Source: Maribacter orientalis
Lineage (GTDB): Bacteria; Bacteroidota; Bacteroidia; Flavobacteriales; Flavobacteriaceae
DNA length: 64,000 nt
Direction of reading: 5' to 3'
Assembly (NCBI RefSeq): GCF_900109345.1
Contig: NZ_FNZN01000010.1
Span: forward strand, 1-64,000
In this document: positions 1-35,618 of the stretch, piece by piece
Position numbering within the stretch: position 1 is the stretch's first letter
Layout: each line of letters begins with the position of its first letter
Translations under genes and position numbers: made by a program
Notes under the pieces: model-generated
Databases searched by the model: none
What the model was told of the DNA's origin: nothing
Seen by the model: the letters and a program-made list of their open reading frames with translations, nothing else

Positions 1-294
1 GAGAATTTTGTTCCTCAATTTTTCATCGGAAAGCTCTCTCTCCAGGCGTTTGATTTTTTGGGCAGGTGTTTCTTTTGATTTTGGCATTTGATGGCGTAAA
101 GGTTTACTCCAATCTAATGTACCATGTTTTCTCAGCCAAACCAAAACGGTACTTCTGCCTTGAATACCATAAGACTTTTGCGCTTGTTTATAAGTCATCT
201 CGCCTTTTTCAACCTGATGGACTACACTTAATTTAAAGCCCAAATTATAATCGCGTTGAGTACGCTTGTTTACCGTAATAATCGAATGTTTCAT
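1..294 (-). CDS. IS3-family transposase OrfA, partial (cut by window edge)
   Basis: The first 98 codons of a transposase subunit are visible, starting with ATG at 294 and reading out of the window at base 1. Residues about 15-60 look like the helix-turn-helix of the IS3 OrfA group, with the segments SYGIQGRSTVLVWLRKHG and GTLDWSKPL. A charged leucine-rich stretch follows (AQKIKRLERELSDEKLRNKIL begins here), matching the coiled-coil multimerisation region of OrfA. In this family OrfA binds the terminal repeats and is joined to the DDE subunit OrfB by programmed frameshifting; OrfB would lie outside the window. The terminal repeat at 309-335 fits this. I cannot tell whether the element is intact. 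Confidence 0.85.
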   Translation of the reverse strand, partial: MKHSIITVNKRTQRDYNLGFKLSVVHQVEKGEMTYKQAQKSYGIQGRSTVLVWLRKHGTLDWSKPLRHQMPKSKETPAQKIKRLERELSDEKLRNKIL

Positions 295-381: not shown

Positions 382-1464
382 TCAAGAATTTACAATCTTC
401 TCTTGGTGCCGAATAGACTCTTGGTGGATTGCTTTGAACATACGAAGAACGAATTCTTCACTTAGTCCTTTACTTTCTCCTTCAAGAATCATTGCTCCTA
501 AAATTTCGTTCCAACGTGTGCTTTGCAATACTGCTACGTTTTTCTCTTTTTTAAGTTCACCGATAGCATCTGAAGTTTTCATACGCTTACCTAAAGTTTC
601 GATCAATTGATTATCGAAAATATCAATATTCGCTCTTAGATTGTTCAATTTCGCATTGTATTCAGCCTCAGTGTTATCTTCTTTACGAATTTTCAAATCT
701 CTCATAATCTGAACTAACTTGGCTGGCGTTACTTGTTGTGCAGCATCACTCCATGCATTATCTGGATCATGATGAGTTTCAATCATCAATCCGTCAAAAT
801 TAAGATCTAGAGCTGTTTGTGATACATCAAAAATCATTTCTCTATTTCCTGTAATGTGAGATGGATCATTGATTATAGGTAAATCTGGAAATTTAGTCTG
901 CAAATCAATCGCCATTTGCCATTCTGGAATATTCCTATATTTAGTTTTCTCGTATGTTGAGAAACCTCTATGAATAACTCCTAAATTTTTAATATCTGCA
1001 GTAGCCAAACGTTCAACAGCTCCTAACCATAAAGCTAAATCTGGATTTACCGGATTCTTCACCAATACGATTTTATCGGTTCCTTTTAATGCATCTGCAA
1101 TTTCTTGAACTATAAACGGACTAACTGTTGATCTTGCACCGATCCATAATAAATCGACATCATGCTCTAAAGCCAATTCTACGTGCGCACGATTTGCTAC
1201 CTCAGTAGCAGTTTTCATACCTGTTTCAGCCTTAACTTTTTGAAGCCATTTAAGGCCCAATGCGCCTACACCTTCAAAATTTCCTGGGCGAGTACGGGGT
1301 TTCCAAATACCTGCTCTGTAATAATTTACATCGGTATCTTTTAGGGAGTGTGCTATTCCTAACACTTGTTCCTCTGTTTCCGCACTACATGGCCCTGCTA
1401 TTACTAGTGGATGGTCTAGTTTTAAATCATCCAACCATGTTCTCATTTGTTTTGAATTTTCCAT
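382..1464 (-). CDS. Bifunctional DAHP synthase / chorismate mutase
   Basis: The protein has 360 residues. Residues 1 to about 260 are a type I-beta 3-deoxy-7-phosphoheptulonate synthase, recognised from IAGPCSAETEEQV, KPRTRPGNFEG, WIGARSTVSPF and INDPSHITGNR. It condenses phosphoenolpyruvate and erythrose 4-phosphate. Residues about 270-355 are an AroQ-type chorismate mutase (LNNLRANIDIFDNQLIETLGKRM), which makes prephenate. This synthase-then-mutase fusion is known in Bacteroidota, where the mutase domain also carries feedback control. It is the last gene of the operon, 10 bases after tyrA, so the first step of the shikimate pathway and the branch to Phe/Tyr are made together and should share the attenuator at 4328-4456. 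Confidence 0.93.
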   Translation of the reverse strand: MENSKQMRTWLDDLKLDHPLVIAGPCSAETEEQVLGIAHSLKDTDVNYYRAGIWKPRTRPGNFEGVGALGLKWLQKVKAETGMKTATEVANRAHVELALEHDVDLLWIGARSTVSPFIVQEIADALKGTDKIVLVKNPVNPDLALWLGAVERLATADIKNLGVIHRGFSTYEKTKYRNIPEWQMAIDLQTKFPDLPIINDPSHITGNREMIFDVSQTALDLNFDGLMIETHHDPDNAWSDAAQQVTPAKLVQIMRDLKIRKEDNTEAEYNAKLNNLRANIDIFDNQLIETLGKRMKTSDAIGELKKEKNVAVLQSTRWNEILGAMILEGESKGLSEEFVLRMFKAIHQESIRHQEKIVNS

Positions 1465-1474
1465 TTTAATTATT

Positions 1475-2335
1475 CTATTTCTTGTTTAACGGTATTCCTT
1501 TTAATATTCCTTTAATCTTATTGGTATTGTTCATTTCATTGTAAATACCTTCGTAATCGTCTTGCAGCAGTAATTCTTTAAATGCTGTAAGATTATGTAT
1601 GTACTCGTCTAATGTTTCGACTACATTTTCTTTATTTTGCTTAAAAATAGGTGTCCACATGGCTGGTGAACTTTTTGCCAAACGCACCGTACTTTCAAAT
1701 CCACTGCCCGCCATATCAAAAATATCTCGCTCGTTTTTCTCTTTCTCAATTACTGTCTTACCCAACATAAAAGCACTGATGTGCGATAAATGAGATACAT
1801 AGGCGATATGCTTATCATGCGCTTCGGGGTTCATATAGCGAATACGCATACCTATAGCTTGAAAAAACTGCAATGCTTTTTCTTGTAGCTTAAAAGCAGT
1901 CAGCTCCACTTCACATATTATATTCGTCTTATCTCTGAACAAATCATTTATCGCTGCCGATGGACCAGAAAACTCTGTTCCTGATATTGGGTGGCAGGCT
2001 AAGAAATTTCTTCTCTTGGGATGGCTCTCCAACGTTTTACAAATTAATGATTTGGTAGAGCCCACGTCAAAAACAACACAATCTTCATGAACTGCATCCA
2101 ATATTTTCGGAAGCTCTGTAACCATTACATCTACCGGAATACTTACAATCACCATATCTGCCAATTGCAAATCTTGATAGCTCGCTTTCTTATCGATAAT
2201 TCCTAAATCTTCGGCCTCTGCCAAATGTGTGGCATTAGAATCAATGCCGTATACGGTAACCTCTTCTTGCGTAGACTTTATGTCTTTCGCTAAAGAACCT
2301 CCAATTAAACCTATACCGATTACAAATACATTCAT
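1475..2335 (-). CDS. tyrA: Prephenate dehydrogenase
   Basis: A 286-residue enzyme that oxidatively decarboxylates prephenate to 4-hydroxyphenylpyruvate, the tyrosine precursor. The N-terminal Rossmann motif is VIGIGLIGGSLAKDI at residues 5-19. ACHPISGTEFSGP and the helical region HIAYVSHLSHISAFML are typical of the TyrA family. No ACT domain follows, so feedback by tyrosine is not obvious from the sequence. It lies 4 bases after the aminotransferase gene and 10 before the DAHP synthase/mutase gene, in one minus-strand operon. Confidence 0.93.
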   Translation of the reverse strand: MNVFVIGIGLIGGSLAKDIKSTQEEVTVYGIDSNATHLAEAEDLGIIDKKASYQDLQLADMVIVSIPVDVMVTELPKILDAVHEDCVVFDVGSTKSLICKTLESHPKRRNFLACHPISGTEFSGPSAAINDLFRDKTNIICEVELTAFKLQEKALQFFQAIGMRIRYMNPEAHDKHIAYVSHLSHISAFMLGKTVIEKEKNERDIFDMAGSGFESTVRLAKSSPAMWTPIFKQNKENVVETLDEYIHNLTAFKELLLQDDYEGIYNEMNNTNKIKGILKGIPLNKK

Positions 2336-2339
2336 TAAA

Positions 2340-3485
2340 CTAAAATCTTGCGATTGCCTCTTTTATTTTATCCTCAGTAATACAAAGAGAAAACCTAATA
2401 TAGCCCTCTCCATTACTCCCGAATATGGTTCCTGGTGTTATAAATAAATCTTTTTTATATAATATGTCATTTATAAAAGCTTCGGATGCCACACTACCTT
2501 CAGGTAATTTTGCCCAAACGAACATGCCAACAGCATCTCTATCATAAGAACAACCAAGTGTATCTGCCAATTGAAAAATCAACTCTCTACGCTTACCATA
2601 CACCTTGTTCAATTCAACGAACCAATCATCACTACTTTCTAACGCTGCTATAGCTCCTTTCTGAATGCCGTAAAACATACCAGAATCCATATTACTCTTT
2701 ACTTTTAAAATAGCATTGATATGTTCTTCACTACCCAGAACAAAACCTACGCGCCAACCAGCCATGTTAAAGGTTTTGCTTAAAGAATTCAGTTCTAAAC
2801 ACACCTCTTTTGCATTTGGGATACTTAAAATACTTGCTGGATCTGTATTCAACACAAAACTATATGGATTGTCATTTACCAAAAGAATATCATGCTTTTT
2901 GGCAAAGGCAACAATTTTAACAAATTGTTCTCTTGTTGCGGTAGCACCTGTTGGCATATGCGGATAACTCAACCACATAATTTTGACTTTCGACAAGTCT
3001 TGATCTTCTAATACCTTTAAATCTGGAAACCAGCCATTTTCTTCGATAAGGTCATAATATATTGGCACAGCCCCTACCAAATTCGTTACCGATGTATATG
3101 TCGGGTATCCTGGATTCGGAATCAACACCTCATCCCCAGCATTTAAAAAGGCTAAACTAATATGCATAATGCCCTCTTTAGACCCCATTAAGGGGAGAAT
3201 TTCAGTGGCAGGATCTGCTGTTACATCAAATCTATTTTTATAAAAATTAGCTATAGACTCTCTTAATTGAGGTAAGCCTTGGTAACTTTGATACTGGTGC
3301 GCACCATTTTCGAACACTGCTTCCTGTATTGCATTTAGCACGTGTTCTGACGGCGCTAAATCTGGACTCCCGATCCCCATATTAATGATAGGTTTACCTT
3401 GTGCCATTAAGCCACGTACTTCTCTCAACTTTTTTGAGAAGTAGTATTCCTGTACGGTATTCAACCTATCGGCCGTTCGTATCAT
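2340..3485 (-). CDS. PLP-dependent class I/II aminotransferase, probably aromatic
   Basis: The 381-residue fold-type I aminotransferase carries the PLP lysine in SLSKTFNMAGWRVGF and the pocket motifs NPGYPTY and VNDNPYSF. The family includes aspartate, aromatic and LL-diaminopimelate aminotransferases. Placement between pheA (4-base overlap) and tyrA supports a role in transaminating phenylpyruvate and hydroxyphenylpyruvate, or prephenate itself. The exact substrate is inferred from context and is not visible in the sequence. Confidence 0.85.
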   Translation of the reverse strand: MIRTADRLNTVQEYYFSKKLREVRGLMAQGKPIINMGIGSPDLAPSEHVLNAIQEAVFENGAHQYQSYQGLPQLRESIANFYKNRFDVTADPATEILPLMGSKEGIMHISLAFLNAGDEVLIPNPGYPTYTSVTNLVGAVPIYYDLIEENGWFPDLKVLEDQDLSKVKIMWLSYPHMPTGATATREQFVKIVAFAKKHDILLVNDNPYSFVLNTDPASILSIPNAKEVCLELNSLSKTFNMAGWRVGFVLGSEEHINAILKVKSNMDSGMFYGIQKGAIAALESSDDWFVELNKVYGKRRELIFQLADTLGCSYDRDAVGMFVWAKLPEGSVASEAFINDILYKKDLFITPGTIFGSNGEGYIRFSLCITEDKIKEAIARF

Positions 3486-4309
3486 TGTCTCACATTTTTA
3501 TATTCACCCAAAACCTTAAAATCTTCTGCCATGATGTTCAATAGCCTTTTTGCCTTTGTAAAATCTGCAAAATCGTTAAAAGTTACATCAACAAAAAAGG
3601 CATATTTCCAAGGTGTTTCTATAACTGGCAATGATTGTATTTTCGTTAAATTTAATCTGCAATCGCTCATAACATTAAGTACTGCTGCTAAACTGCCCCT
3701 TTTATGGTCGGTAATAAACCGTATAGAAGCCTTCGTAATTTCGGCCTCTGGCAACGCATCGTTTTTTGTTTGTACAATGATAAAACGGGTTGCATTATTT
3801 TTAATGGTCTGTATCTCTTTTGCTACGATGTCCAAACCATATAATTCTGCCGCAACGTTAGGTGCGATTGCTGCTACATGACCTAATTTTTGTTCTTGAA
3901 TTCGCTTTGCAGTTTCAGCAGTATCAACATCTTCTACCAATTTAATATGCGGATACTGTCTAAAATACTCCTTGCATTGCAACAATGCCATAGGGTGTGA
4001 ACTTACCTCAGAAATATCTGAAATTTTTTGCCCTTTCAGCACCATCAAATTATGATGAATGTTCAAGTAATATTCGCCTATAATATGCAAGTCGTTATGG
4101 TTGACAAGTGCATAATTTGGGATAATTGATCCGGCAATCGAATTCTCTATAGCCATCACTCCTTGATCCGCTTCTTTCGACAATAACTTATCTACCAACT
4201 CATCGAACGAAAGACATTCAACGAGCTCTATATCATCTCCATAACAATCTTTTGCTACTTGGTGATGATTGGAACCTTTAATTCCCTGTATCGCTATTTT
4301 TAAACTCAC
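3482..4309 (-). CDS. pheA: Prephenate dehydratase
   Basis: The 275-residue enzyme converts prephenate to phenylpyruvate. The catalytic domain spans about residues 1-180 and contains NSIAGSI, LMVLKG, SHPMALLQC and the active-site motif NNATRFIIV. A C-terminal ACT domain (about 195-270) has GSLAAVLNVM, matching the GALA motif. The usual Phe-binding ESRP is replaced by QSLP in LTKIQSLPV, so feedback inhibition may differ from classic PheA. It is the first gene of the aromatic operon and overlaps the next gene by 4 bases. Its start sits about 19 bases downstream of a terminator hairpin, see 4328-4359. Confidence 0.93.
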   Translation of the reverse strand: MSLKIAIQGIKGSNHHQVAKDCYGDDIELVECLSFDELVDKLLSKEADQGVMAIENSIAGSIIPNYALVNHNDLHIIGEYYLNIHHNLMVLKGQKISDISEVSSHPMALLQCKEYFRQYPHIKLVEDVDTAETAKRIQEQKLGHVAAIAPNVAAELYGLDIVAKEIQTIKNNATRFIIVQTKNDALPEAEITKASIRFITDHKRGSLAAVLNVMSDCRLNLTKIQSLPVIETPWKYAFFVDVTFNDFADFTKAKRLLNIMAEDFKVLGEYKNVRQ

Positions 4310-4327
4310 TTTTACTTAATTAATTTC

Positions 4328-4359
4328 AAAAAAAAAAGTTCCGATATATATCGGAACTT
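4328..4359 (-). terminator. Attenuator terminator upstream of pheA, with competing antiterminator
   Basis: On the minus strand a perfect 24-base palindrome (4336-4359, half-site AAGTTCCGATAT) is followed by ten T, placed between the leader peptide and pheA. Read-through is therefore needed to express the operon. The 5' arm contains AGTTCCG (4352-4358), which is complementary, with one G-U pair, to CGGGACT inside the leader coding sequence (4392-4398). The intervening bases add two further helices: TTCTA (4386-4390) with TAGAA (4362-4366), and TATTTT with AAAATA. The resulting long hairpin and the terminator cannot coexist, which is the defining layout of an attenuator. Confidence 0.85.
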
Positions 4360-4384
4360 AATTCTATTTTATTTTTAAAATATG

Positions 4385-4456
4385 CTAGAACAGTCCCGTA
4401 CCTCTCTTAAAAAAGAAGTAGAAATAAAAACCTGTCCAGAAATATTGTTTTGTCAT
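4385..4456 (-). CDS. Leader peptide of the aromatic operon (23 residues, Phe/Tyr-rich)
   Basis: A 23-codon reading frame runs from ATG at 4456 to TAG at 4385. It begins MTKQYFW and contains the run FYFYFFF at residues 10-16. In all 7 Phe, 3 Tyr and 1 Trp make up 11 of 23 residues. This is the composition of a ribosome-stalling leader for a Phe/Tyr operon. The bases coding for the run can also fold on the RNA into a stem, with TACTTCTTTT pairing to AAGAGAGGTA. The bases coding for residues 20-22 form the 5' arm of the antiterminator. A ribosome stalled at the run would leave that arm free, and one reaching the stop codon would cover it. A possible -7 element TACATTAG lies at 4475-4482 (one mismatch to TAnnTTTG); I see no clear -33 box. 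Confidence 0.85.
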   Translation of the reverse strand: MTKQYFWTGFYFYFFFKRGTGLF

Positions 4457-4459
4457 TGC

Positions 4460-4787
4460 TCTTGTAAACTTCGGCTAATGTAGTAATTATATTTAAAAAC
4501 TGATATCTATGAGAATATTTTTTTTAAATTAACATTTACCTTACCAAAACATATGGTTTTTGTGTAAATTATAACTCTATTGATTTGCGCTAGGCTGGTA
4601 ATAAAATAGAATAGACCAATTATTTTCTTGAACATCTCCTAAGTTTTTGACAACTTCAATTGTATTTATCTTTCTGTGAAATTAATTCAGTAGTTTATGT
4701 CAGCTGAACCATTTGACTCATTTAATTTAAAATGTATACTATATTTCATGCCTCCATTTTTCACCTACTTCAAAAACAAAGTAATCA
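4460..4787. other. Intergenic stretch, no gene seen
   Basis: Very AT-rich DNA between the serine hydrolase gene and the aromatic leader. It should hold the promoter of the aromatic operon near 4470-4520. I see no further reading frame, repeat or terminator that I can support. Confidence 0.5.
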
Positions 4788-8960: not shown

Positions 8961-9010
8961 TTTTTTTGGGCGTTACCAAATGGTCGGGCTTTACGCTATA
9001 TTTTTTCTAT
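8961..9010. repeat. GGGCG...GGTCGGGC small structured repeat
   Basis: Between metH and metF lies a T-run, then GGGCGTTACC, AAAT, GGTCGGGCTTTACGC and another T-run. GCGT can pair with ACGC and ACC with GGT, giving a small stem with an asymmetric loop that keeps CGGGCTTT single stranded. From memory, very similar GGGCG.../GGTCGGGC... segments are scattered through Bacteroidota intergenic regions. I see only one copy in this window and cannot assign a function. Confidence 0.45.
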
Positions 9011-9084
9011 TTCTAAATATTATTTTCATTTTAGCAAACATGAGTAAAAATAGAAAAAGATGCCACTTCAATCCCTAACGCAAA

Positions 9085-11796
9085 TTAGGCATCTACAATA
9101 TTTGGAGATAACCATCTCTCAGCTTTTTCGAAATCTATTCCCTTTCTCTCTGCAAAGTCTTTCACTTGGTCTTCCTTTATTTTACCTAAACCAAAATAAC
9201 GTGCTTCAGGATTTCCAAAATAATACCCACTAACTGATGCCGCTGGCCACATCGCCAAACTATCCGTTAGTTCTACACCTATTGTTTCCTTAACTTTTAA
9301 AATATCCCAAATGGTCAATTTCTCCAAATGATCCGGACAAGCAGGATACCCCGGCGCCGGACGAATACCTTTGTACGATTCATGAATCAATTCTTCAGTA
9401 CTCAAATCTTCATTGTCCGCATAGCCCCAATGTTTCATACGGACTTCTTTATGCAAGTATTCGGCGAAAGCCTCTGCCAATCGATCTGCCAATGCTTTTA
9501 CTAAAATAGAATTGTAATCGTCCAAATCCTTTTCATATTGGCCAGCCAACTCAGCAGTACCAAAACCTGTGGACACACAAAAACACCCTATATAATCTTC
9601 CCTTCCAGATTCTTTTGGTGCGATAAAATCGGACAATGCATAATCAGCGACTCCTTCTCTTTTTTGTAATTGTTGACGTAGGGTGCGGAATATATAACCC
9701 TCTTCCTCTCGGCCTTTAACTGCGCTTAAGGAAACATTGATATCATCCTCATTTATGGTATTGGCAGGAAACAATCCAAAAATTCCTTTGGCCTTCAACT
9801 GCTTATTAGAAATAATTTGCTTCAACATTTTTTGTGCATCAGCAAATAATTCTGTGGCTTGGGCCCCTACTACATCATCAGTTAAAATTGCGGGATATTT
9901 ACCATGCAATTCCCAGCTTCTAAAAAATGGAGTCCAATCGATATAAGGCACCAATAGATTTAAATCTAAATCTTCAATAACTTGAATTCCTAATTTGTTG
10001 GGCTTAAAAATTTCACTTTTGCTCCAATCTATCTTAAACTTATTTCTGCGCGCAGCAGCAATCGTTTTGTATGTTTTACTGGAAGATCGGTTTAAAAACT
10101 TGGTTCTAAATACATCATAATCTTCCTTAATTCTCTTTTTATACCCGAGAGACGTTTCTTTTTGAAGCAAATCGCCTACTACGGTAACTGCCCTTGAAGC
10201 ATCGTTTACATGAACCACAGCTTCTTTATATTGCGTATCTATTTTTACTGCTGTATGCGCTTTACTGGTTGTTGCACCACCAATCAATAACGGAATTTTA
10301 AAATTCTTTCGCTCCATCTCCTTGGCCAAATGCACCATTTCATCCAAAGACGGTGTTATTAATCCACTTAAGCCAATAATATCTACATTATGCTCAATGG
10401 CTGCTGCGATTATTTTTTCTGGTGGCACCATAACCCCTAAATCAACAATCTCATAATTATTACACGCTAGAACAACACCAACGATATTCTTACCAATATC
10501 ATGAACATCTCCTTTTACGGTTGCCATAAGAATTTTACCGGCATTATCAGAATCCCCTTCTTGCGGATTCAATAATTTCTCTTCTTCGATGTACGGCAAC
10601 AAATACGCCACCGCTTTTTTCATGACCCGAGCAGACTTTACTACCTGTGGTAAAAACATCTTTCCGCTTCCAAACAAATCACCTACCACATTCATACCAG
10701 TCATTAAATTTCCTTCAATAACTTCAATTGGCTTATCGGCTTCTTGTCTCGCTTGCTCTACATCTTCAACTATATATTGGTCAATACCCTTTACTAAGGC
10801 ACGTGTAATTCTATTTTGCAATGGCTCCTCTCGCCATGACAAATCAATCTTACTTTCTTTTGTTTTTCCAACCACCGATTCTGCAAAATCAAGTAATCTC
10901 TCGGTTGCATCATCCCTTCTGTTTAAGATAACATCTTCTACACGTTCCAGTAAATCCTTAGGAATATCATCATACACCTCCAACATACTCGGGTTTACGA
11001 TACCCATGTTCATACCCGCTTTTATGGCATGATATAGAAATACTGAATGCATCGCCTCACGAACAGGGTTATTTCCCCTAAATGAGAAGGAAACATTACT
11101 TACCCCACCACTGACACTTGCATACGGTAAATTTTCGCGTACCCATTTAGTAGCTTTTATAAAATCTAGGGCATTGAGCTTATGCTCATCCATACCCGTA
11201 GCAACAGGGAAAATATTAAGGTCAAAAATGATATCCTCTGGTGCGAAACCAACCTTATCAACTAGCACATCATATGAACGCTTAGCAATTTCGATTCGAC
11301 GTTCATAATTGTCGGCTTGGCCTACTTCATCAAAAGCCATAACTATTACAGCGGCACCATAGCGTTTAATCAATTTAGCCTGATGCATAAATTGTTCTTC
11401 ACCCTCCTTTAAACTAATGGAATTCACGACACATTTTCCTTGCACAACCTGTAAACCAGCCTCAATGATTTCCCATTTAGAACTATCGATCATAATAGGA
11501 ACTCGAGAAATATCAGGCTCGGCAATGACCAGGTTCAAAAACTTGACCATGGCCTCTTTCCCATCAATCAGACCATCATCCATGTTAATGTCGATAACCT
11601 GTGCACCATTTTCTACTTGCTCTCTAGCTACAACCAAAGCTTCTTCAAATTTTTCTTCTTTTATCAATCGAAGAAACATTTTTGAACCAGCCACATTGGT
11701 ACGTTCACCAACATTAATAAAATTCGTTTCAGGGGTTACAATCAATGGCTCAAGGCCACTTAACTTTAGAAATCGTTGTTCGTTTTTTCCGCTCAT
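9085..11796 (-). CDS. metH: Methionine synthase, cobalamin- and folate-binding part
   Basis: The 903-residue protein covers the last three modules of cobalamin-dependent MetH. The methyltetrahydrofolate domain is near the N-terminus ([27 protein letters not shown]). The B12 domain is in the middle, with the histidine motif [12 protein letters not shown] and loop GLSGLITPS. The reactivation domain is at the C-terminus, with SAM-binding [12 protein letters not shown]. The homocysteine module is absent because it is encoded separately by the gene 14 bases upstream. Together the two proteins should do what the 1200-residue enzyme does in enterobacteria. The split form is common in Bacteroidota. 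Confidence 0.95.
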
Positions 11797-12812: not shown

Positions 12813-12894
12813 TTTACGCTGTAAAAAGTTCTATGTTCATAAAAATTTAATATGATATCAAGGAAGTAAAGGATAGGAAAGTGTTCTTTCTTGA

Positions 12895-13000
12895 GTTATC
12901 TGTCCCCAAAAAAAGGGATAGAATGTAGCACCTTCTTATCCGTTCAGAAAAGGGTTGCCAAGGTTTCATAGGGTCTAGTCCCTCCGCCTTTCTTGATAAC
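12895..13000 (-). promoter_or_regulatory. SAM-I (S-box) riboswitch upstream of metH
   Basis: On the minus strand the element opens with GTTATCAAGAAAGG, then GGAGGGACTAGACCCTATGA, AACCTTGGCAACC, and GGTGCTACATTCTATCC, closing with GATAAC, which pairs with the first six bases to make P1. These are the conserved blocks of the SAM-I aptamer in their normal order. The 3' part also has the CCC...GGG P4-like stem with an A/T-rich loop. I do not see an obvious U-tailed terminator between 12895 and the start codon at 12812, so the output may be translational or use a weak terminator. Confidence 0.93.
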
Positions 13001-13104
13001 GTTTCAATCTATTTATGAACGAATTGCAAAGTAACGGCACTACCAGGTCAAATCCAAAAAAATCCATATACTTTTTGGCTTGAGGAATTTTGATTATACG
13101 TCAT

Positions 13105-27943: not shown

Positions 27944-28064
27944 GATTTTGTTGTTTTTAAATATTATTTAAATAATTAAAAAGCTCATCCTCGACCGACA
28001 TAAAATGTGGGTAGGTAAAATCAAAAAGTTATAAGAAAGTAATATCGAAAAAAAATCGATTACT

Positions 28065-28164
28065 GTTATCCTTCCCGTAAGGGTAGAATGTAGCACCTTC
28101 TTTGTATAGAACAAAGGGTTGCTAAGGTTTCAAAGGGTCTAATCCCTCCACCTTTCTTGATAAC
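28065..28164 (-). promoter_or_regulatory. SAM-I (S-box) riboswitch upstream of metY
   Basis: On the minus strand GTTATCAAGAAAGG, TGGAGGGATTAGACCCTTTGA, AACCTTAGCAACC, a CTTTGT...ACAAAG hairpin and GGTGCTACATTCTACCC follow in order, closed by GATAAC pairing with GTTATC. The layout matches the metH copy (12895-13000) nearly block by block. Just downstream, AGTAATCGA and TCGATATTACT could form an expression-platform hairpin around a T-run. Confidence 0.93.
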
Positions 28165-28170
28165 TATTCA

Positions 28171-35349: not shown

Positions 35350-35429
35350 GGATTAAACTGCTTTAGCATTTTTACCCTTAAAACTAGCTTAAGGCCCCGA
35401 GGTTGCAATCAGACAAATCCTTCCTCTTT
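35350..35429 (-). promoter_or_regulatory. Candidate SAM-II-type riboswitch upstream of metK
   Basis: Minus strand: AAAGAGG, a loop with GGATTTGTCTGATTGCAA, then CCTC closes P1 (GAGG/CCTC). A perfect side hairpin CCTTAA...TTAAGG follows, then AAAATGCTAAAGC and AATCC. The terminal AATCC is complementary to GGATT in the P1 loop, giving the pseudoknot. ATTGCAA and GCTAAA at these places match what I remember of the SAM-II aptamer, here enlarged by the side hairpin. Just downstream AATCCAAA...TTTGGATT forms a hairpin that would compete with the pseudoknot for AATCC, a plausible switch. Confidence 0.6.
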
Positions 35430-35618
35430 AATAACGACTCAAAAGTATGAAAATTGTTTGTATAAAAACCTAAAGAATAGTATTTATACTAATATTGACA
35501 TAACTTTAGGTGTGTTTATTTATAGCTGCATTTCATCTACTATTTTTCTTAATGCTTAATTTACTTTGTATCTTGTGCGTTATAATTTTCATTAATCTAA
35601 CCGTTAAATAGACTCAAA

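Follow-up and report, generated by a model that had tools for sequence, protein, structure and literature searches.

The window (the whole 64,000-nucleotide stretch of the Maribacter orientalis contig that was analysed) carries an aromatic amino acid operon close to one edge, and the question raised by this locus is what the short Phe- and Tyr-rich frame directly upstream of the operon does. Leader-peptide attenuation is a textbook principle, usually taught from enterobacteria, in which pheL places a Phe-rich leader and mutually exclusive hairpins ahead of pheA. Our analysis indicates that the Maribacter pheA leader is very likely a ribosome-mediated transcription attenuator reading charged tRNA-Phe and tRNA-Tyr, which probably lets this marine bacterium halt the pathway when Phe and Tyr are plentiful. 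The leader frame, the RNA helices, their conservation in relatives and the operon layout are shown here, and we take them up in turn.

Leader frame, terminator and operon

The leader peptide frame, MTKQYFWTGFYFYFFFKRGTGLF, runs from ATG to TAG on the minus strand at 4385..4456 (ATG at 4456, TAG at 4387..4385) and comprises 23 codons plus the stop. As the earlier note had read it, the peptide contains 11 aromatic residues (7 Phe, 3 Tyr and 1 Trp) and the run FYFYFFF, which occupies residues 10-16. These putative regulatory codons, Phe-Tyr-Phe-Tyr-Phe-Phe-Phe, lie at 4409..4429 (minus). In total, 10/23 codons specify Phe or Tyr, the end products of the pathway, ahead of pheA and tyrA. No Pfam or NCBIfam model matched the peptide at E up to 0.001.

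An intrinsic terminator lies between the leader and the first gene. Specifically, a spacer of 25 nt separates the leader stop from a perfect 24-base palindrome (AAGTTCCGATAT/ATATCGGAACTT; 4336..4359, minus), which gives a 10-bp stem closed by a 4-nt loop and whose helix is conserved with two-sided changes in relatives. The palindrome is as the earlier note described it, whereas the ten T said to follow it (4328..4337, minus) begin inside it: two belong to the palindrome and eight come after. The end of the T-run is 18 nt from the GTG of pheA. On the other side of the leader, 18 nt upstream of its ATG, the sequence TACATTAG (4475..4482, minus) is a probable promoter -7 box of the TAnnTTTG-like form (TAnnTTnG), the flavobacterial σA consensus being given as TAnnTTTG at -12 to -5 in PMC9723704. 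TAnnTTnG is present in 84/90 family stretches, compared with 187/1800 mononucleotide shuffles, and in 70 of the 84 stretches having the box it starts 25-30 nt upstream of the ATG.

Downstream of the terminator, four genes follow on the minus strand. The first, pheA (3482..4309, GTG start at 4309), encodes a prephenate dehydratase (PF00800, E 7.2e-58) that is 98% identical to the pheA protein of Maribacter arcticus DSM 23546; its best NCBIfam match, NF008865, scores 191.7 bits, under the cut-off of 219. It overlaps by 4 nt with a class I/II aminotransferase gene (2340..3485; PF00155), which is followed by tyrA for prephenate dehydrogenase (1475..2335; NF006307 at 387.2 bits, above the cut-off of 295) and by a DAHP synthase/chorismate mutase fusion (382..1464; PF00793 and PF01817), for which the NCBIfam models of the same function all fall under their cut-offs. 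Pfam identifies all four products; by NCBIfam cut-offs, the dehydrogenase is the sole one recognised. Since the junctions consist of the 4-nt overlap and gaps of 4 and 10 nt, the four genes are likely transcribed as one unit. A further minus-strand frame (window 1-294), 87 nt downstream of the operon, runs off the window edge; we take it to resemble the first protein of an IS3-type transposase.

Three competing hairpins

Three pairings compete within the leader RNA. Region 2 (CGGGACU; 4392..4398, minus) is the antiterminator 5' arm, and region 3 (AGUUCCG; 4352..4358, minus) is both the antiterminator 3' arm and the terminator 5' arm, so that the 2:3 pairing excludes the terminator. The 7-base complement with one G-U between the last codons of the leader and the terminator arm (CGGGACT at 4398..4392 with AGTTCCG at 4358..4352) had been pointed out in the earlier note, together with the coding of the antiterminator arm in residues 20-22, and we find both. 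Two further helices that were said to extend this alternative hairpin appear when the RNA is folded without the terminator 3' arm; the first pairs 4386..4391 with 4361..4366 (both minus) and the second 4382..4378 with 4374..4370.

A third pairing, which the earlier note missed, involves region 1 (CUGGACAG; 4432..4439, minus), extending from the last base of codon 6 to the first base of codon 9. The fold of the leader alone is a protector hairpin of -14.4 kcal/mol (1:2, with region 1 as its 5' arm), in which the leader end is paired to codons 6-9 and to some Phe/Tyr codons, so that region 2 is concealed. This hairpin emerges from the leader-alone fold, from pair counts and from synonymous recoding, with a slid-register control that is weak for two-sided changes (see below). 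Altogether, 1:2, 2:3 and 3:4 constitute the complete classical attenuator layout, and the pheL/trpL logic claimed for this locus is more complete than had been proposed, since the 1:2 hairpin is kept as well.

The energies of the two downstream hairpins are similar, as fits the needs of a switch: -13.0 kcal/mol for 2:3 (region 2 to region 3, terminator 3' arm omitted) and -12.4 kcal/mol for the 3:4 terminator. With region 2 free, the minimum-energy fold of the full RNA is still the terminator. Because the terminator wins at equilibrium, antitermination would have to be kinetic, with 2:3 forming first during transcription.

The geometry of the leader suits such a switch. Counted from the A of the ATG, region 1 occupies nt 18-25, FYFYFFF nt 28-48, region 2 nt 59-65 and the stop nt 70-72. 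A ribosome covers up to ~12 nt downstream, a reach given in PMC4833913 for a stop codon. With this reach, a ribosome stalled at codons 10-14 would cover region 1 and free region 2, and a ribosome at the stop would cover region 2, which agrees with what the earlier note had expected of stalling and of the stop.

In the course of events that we infer, including promoter use, stalling, read-through and tRNA as the signal, RNA polymerase would start ~14 nt upstream of the leader ATG. When Phe and Tyr are ample, the ribosome would reach the stop and cover region 2, the 3:4 terminator would form, and transcription would end before pheA. When Phe or Tyr is short, the ribosome would stall in the FYFYFFF codons and cover region 1, leaving region 2 free to pair with region 3 before the terminator 3' arm has been synthesised; transcription would then continue through the pheA-aminotransferase-tyrA-DAHP synthase operon. 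If the leader is untranslated, region 1 would pair with region 2, giving the terminator by default.

Conservation in the family and evidence on pairing

We collected pheA homologues from named genomes (the best 80 of 94 relatives), from the genus (35/36 genomes matched) and from the family (360/397). From these, 217 upstream regions were assembled, the window's own included: 80 named, 57 including those from the genus and family searches, and the next 80 family matches by score. All are called family here, although the named records carry their depositors' labels and two of these differ (L066, Saprospiraceae; L017, Cytophaga). An aromatic-dense leader with a terminator is present in 216/217 regions of this set, which was drawn from the higher-scoring family matches; distant members were sampled by L230 and L257 only, and both have leader and terminator. 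The single miss, L037, is a record of only 161 nt in which the terminator is still visible. The 216 regions comprise 178 distinct leader-terminator stretches, and 34 unnamed ones are identical to a named one.

To put these counts against controls, we used a fixed detector (an 8-residue window with at least six F, Y or W, a terminator of -10 kcal/mol or lower, and set spacing). It passes 214/216 family regions, compared with 1/648 dinucleotide shuffles and 1/216 reverse complements; among 496 tiles of the window covering both strands, the sole pass is the tile holding the leader-terminator element. A covariance model of the Phe/Tyr leader likewise gives one strong genome match at 121.9 bits, the next of the 51 matches listed (E up to 10) scoring 39.3. 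In a set of 91 sequences less than 88% identical, Phe and Tyr make up 95% of the best 7-residue windows. The antiterminator is in the minimum-energy fold of 91/91 of these sequences when the 3' arm is absent, a count made without a shuffle control. Relatives lacking the frame or the pairing, which the earlier note had named as telling against an attenuator, were not seen. We give no weight to the extending helices found in 90/91 sequences, since this is a loose count with no control and with differing columns.

The conservation of Trp is relevant to what the leader senses. Trp is present in 71/91 diverse leaders, and the last operon gene, the common-pathway DAHP synthase, serves all three aromatic amino acids; the same attenuator could then sense all three, with the Trp codon at position 7 adding a signal of Trp shortage. 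This extension, which overlaps the Phe/Tyr reading, is possible but, in our view, doubtful. The Trp codon lies in region 1, where pairing with the leader end could account for its being kept; in Zobellia-like leaders that position is taken by Phe or Tyr; and a separate Trp leader precedes trpE.

To ask whether the RNA rather than the peptide is kept, we examined the three helices in the 91 sequences, with counts that ignore shared descent. For the 3:4 helix, 99.5% of cells are paired, with 28 two-sided changes compared with 4.5 in shuffles. The 1:2 helix has 80.5% of cells paired and 75 two-sided cells (43 in shuffles), and the 2:3 helix 83.5% and 16 (6.1 in shuffles). For all three helices, the observed number of paired cells and of two-sided cells is reached in 0/500 shuffles.

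Sliding the register gives a less clean outcome for two of the helices. For 1:2, four of six slides yield 64-72 two-sided cells against the observed 75, with 49-60% of cells paired against 80.5%; for 2:3, three slides yield 19, 21 and 22 two-sided cells against the observed 16, with 12-57% paired against 83.5%. In addition, 1:2 does not exceed shuffles when the pairs showing a two-sided change are counted (169/500 reach the observed value). Compensatory changes, which the earlier note had asked of the alignment, exceed shuffles when counted as two-sided cells; 3:4 alone comes through every measure cleanly. The 1:2 counts are favoured by a structure derived from folds of the same sequences tested, the helix having been assembled from individual folds because clades use different registers; in the alignment used for 2:3, the clade ending NEALYV sits one column off. 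RNAalifold on a MAFFT alignment recovered the terminator only, and returned no structure when given the leader part alone or sequences lacking the 3' arm.

Synonymous recoding, in which the peptide is kept, weakens both leader pairings. For the leader hairpin, mean z is -2.13, with negative values in 99% of the 91 sequences and p ≤ 0.05 in 65%; for the leader-arm duplex, mean z is -1.52, with negative values in 91% and p ≤ 0.05 in 22%. For the window's own sequence, p is 0.07 for the hairpin and 0.06 for the duplex. Across the family, the leader end scores 17.39 against its own terminator arm and 15.53 against those of other species (0/2000 permutations; descent uncorrected).

The sequences of the two arms were also compared. 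With the arm GTCCC, 99/108 leaders carry GGGAC; with GTCTC, 22/37 carry GAGAC and 1 carries GGGAC; with GTTCC, 18/24 keep GGGAC, which leaves a G-U pair, and 4 carry GGAAC. A pheA tree with 113 rows places about four origins of the GTCTC arm, and in three supported independent pairs the leader co-changed in two and opposed in none, which are too few for significance; GTTCC provides one supported pair only. Furthermore, in L067, L173 and L182 the frame stops early and region 2 is retained, spanning or behind the stop codon, a retention that an argument from the peptide alone leaves unexplained.

These results bear on a TnaC-like mechanism, in which the nascent peptide would arrest the ribosome upon a metabolite instead of an empty tRNA. 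In its favour, the leader peptide of near relatives is strikingly conserved. However, non-aromatic residues vary between clades (leaders end KRGTGLL, ERGTGLL, NEALYV or NKS-stop), those non-aromatic codons that are conserved fall in pairing regions 1 and 2, and peptides from outside the family, such as MNTFATYFFFFFYYFYFSNEVKREFVYVR and MTNNKAYGYFYFSFYFTGSRECFC, are dissimilar by eye apart from Phe/Tyr, so that we regard nascent-peptide arrest as improbable. Still more remote is the absence of any leader-controlled switch, be it a chance Phe/Tyr-rich frame by a terminator or a terminator that answers to Rho, to a protein or to a small molecule while the leader stays untranslated, given the detector frequency in relatives far above shuffles and window tiles, the absence of Leu and of stop codons from the best aromatic windows (637 residues, picked for Phe/Tyr) and the lack of an Rfam family at gathering score at the leader.

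Spread beyond the family and relation to known leaders

In a class-wide draw, the window query found a pheA match in 78/295 genomes, family members included. From the 69 of these matches that lie outside the family we retrieved 38 upstream regions, and two more came from the family, giving 40; they were chosen by hand, working down from the highest-listed matches and passing over some. Outside the family, 23/38 regions pass the strict rule and 26/38 a looser rule (5 of 8 residues); for all 40 regions, two of them from the family, the counts are 25/40 and 28/40, compared with 1/800 strict passes in shuffles of the 40 regions and 0/40 in reverse complements. A leader and terminator are also visible by eye in L254 and L255, which brings the number outside the family to 28/38, under 12 family labels. 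Among the ten remaining regions, L227, L234, L238, L242 (313 nt only) and L256 show nothing of the kind; in L218-L222, a long open frame ends less than ~80 nt from pheA or overlaps it. For the 26 automatic cases outside the family, the leader end scores 19.15 against its own terminator arm and 15.18 when permuted (0/10000), and the own score is above the row mean in 22/26.

We lean, by a modest degree, toward the view that Phe/Tyr attenuation is an old default control of the pheA operon across class Bacteroidia, in which leader peptide and hairpins were replaced past recognition while the logic was kept and some lineages acquired tandem arrays. If so, tandem arrays would give a steeper or multi-signal response. 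One such array, in a member of another family of the same order (L273:100-535; G739:C25), consists of three successive Phe-rich leaders with a terminator after each, and precedes a frame 42% identical to the window pheA over 115 residues; Tyr is absent from two of the three leaders. L250 has two attenuator units and is the sole multiple case among 257 regions, L273 being outside those 257.

A search of the order with covariance model R1, which is strong on near relatives and unreliable in its weak matches, gave hits in 46/148 genomes at E up to 0.01. We rejected this figure as a count of true elements; of eleven places fetched, 4 (L278, L279, L282 and L283) are without an aromatic-dense leader.

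Among known elements, enterobacterial pheL (RF01859, Phe_leader) resembles the Maribacter leader in its Phe-rich peptide, its exclusive hairpins and its position before pheA. The Maribacter leader nevertheless falls outside that family (22.9 bits, E 0.13, gathering score 55), would read Phe and Tyr, heads a four-gene operon for Phe, Tyr and the common pathway, and by eye is without a GGAGG-like Shine-Dalgarno sequence. A closer likeness in phylum is RF01692 (Bacteroid-trp), a peptide-leader attenuator that differs in its Trp codons, sequence and operon. In the same genome, RF01692 matches at 49.6 bits, just over the gathering score of 49, before trpE, where the Trp leader MKNLIANTWWWNNLRITT lies (L269:752-867, G000 contig C22). 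A riboswitch or other known RNA family at the Maribacter leader was considered and rejected, none reaching its Rfam gathering score; the 8 sub-threshold matches at 4250-4620 (E up to 5) include Phe_leader, and neither RF01692 nor a T-box leader is among them.

The claim that attenuators of this kind are rarely described in Bacteroidota needs qualifying, in view of the Bacteroidete Trp leader in Rfam and of a 2021 transcriptome of Flavobacterium psychrophilum. That study names a structured 5' element before pheA, conserved in other Flavobacteriaceae genera and with no Rfam match, and in the same paragraph infers leader-peptide attenuation for amino acid operons (PMC9723704). The F. psychrophilum element is very probably the same as that of Maribacter; as far as section 19 of that paper goes, it is described without a leader sequence, a pairing scheme or a spread outside the family. 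Thus the kind of element is known, and the Maribacter element or a close relative of it has already been pointed to in PMC9723704. Our literature search did not find its anatomy, the 1:2 hairpin, the leader sequence, the spread beyond the family or the tandem copies, and an earlier prediction in a comparative study of attenuation (PubMed 20198868) is possible.

According to PMC9723704, flavobacteria use translation start signals other than Shine-Dalgarno sequences and have unusual promoters. The attenuator is retained across the family and recurs, with unlike sequences, in regions that carry 12 other family labels; this suggests a three-hairpin attenuator that works and is maintained in this machinery. 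The principle recurs widely in a little-studied bacterial group, and the collection offers about 200 natural variants with which to probe how ribosome and RNA polymerase are coupled in a phylum where little is known about it. It also fills an annotation gap, the element having no Rfam family at cut-off and a peptide without a Pfam or NCBIfam match (E up to 0.001).

Other leaders and structured RNAs occur in the same genome. A His leader, MKNRTTHHHIHTHALAR, with the terminator AACCCGTTT/AAACGGGTT lies before hisG (L268, minus 2269..2155, G000 contig C8). Within the window, the Rfam matches at gathering score are two SAM riboswitches (28063-28166 and 12893-13002), one SAM-II (35353-35432) and one Flavo-1 (8978-9086), all on the minus strand.
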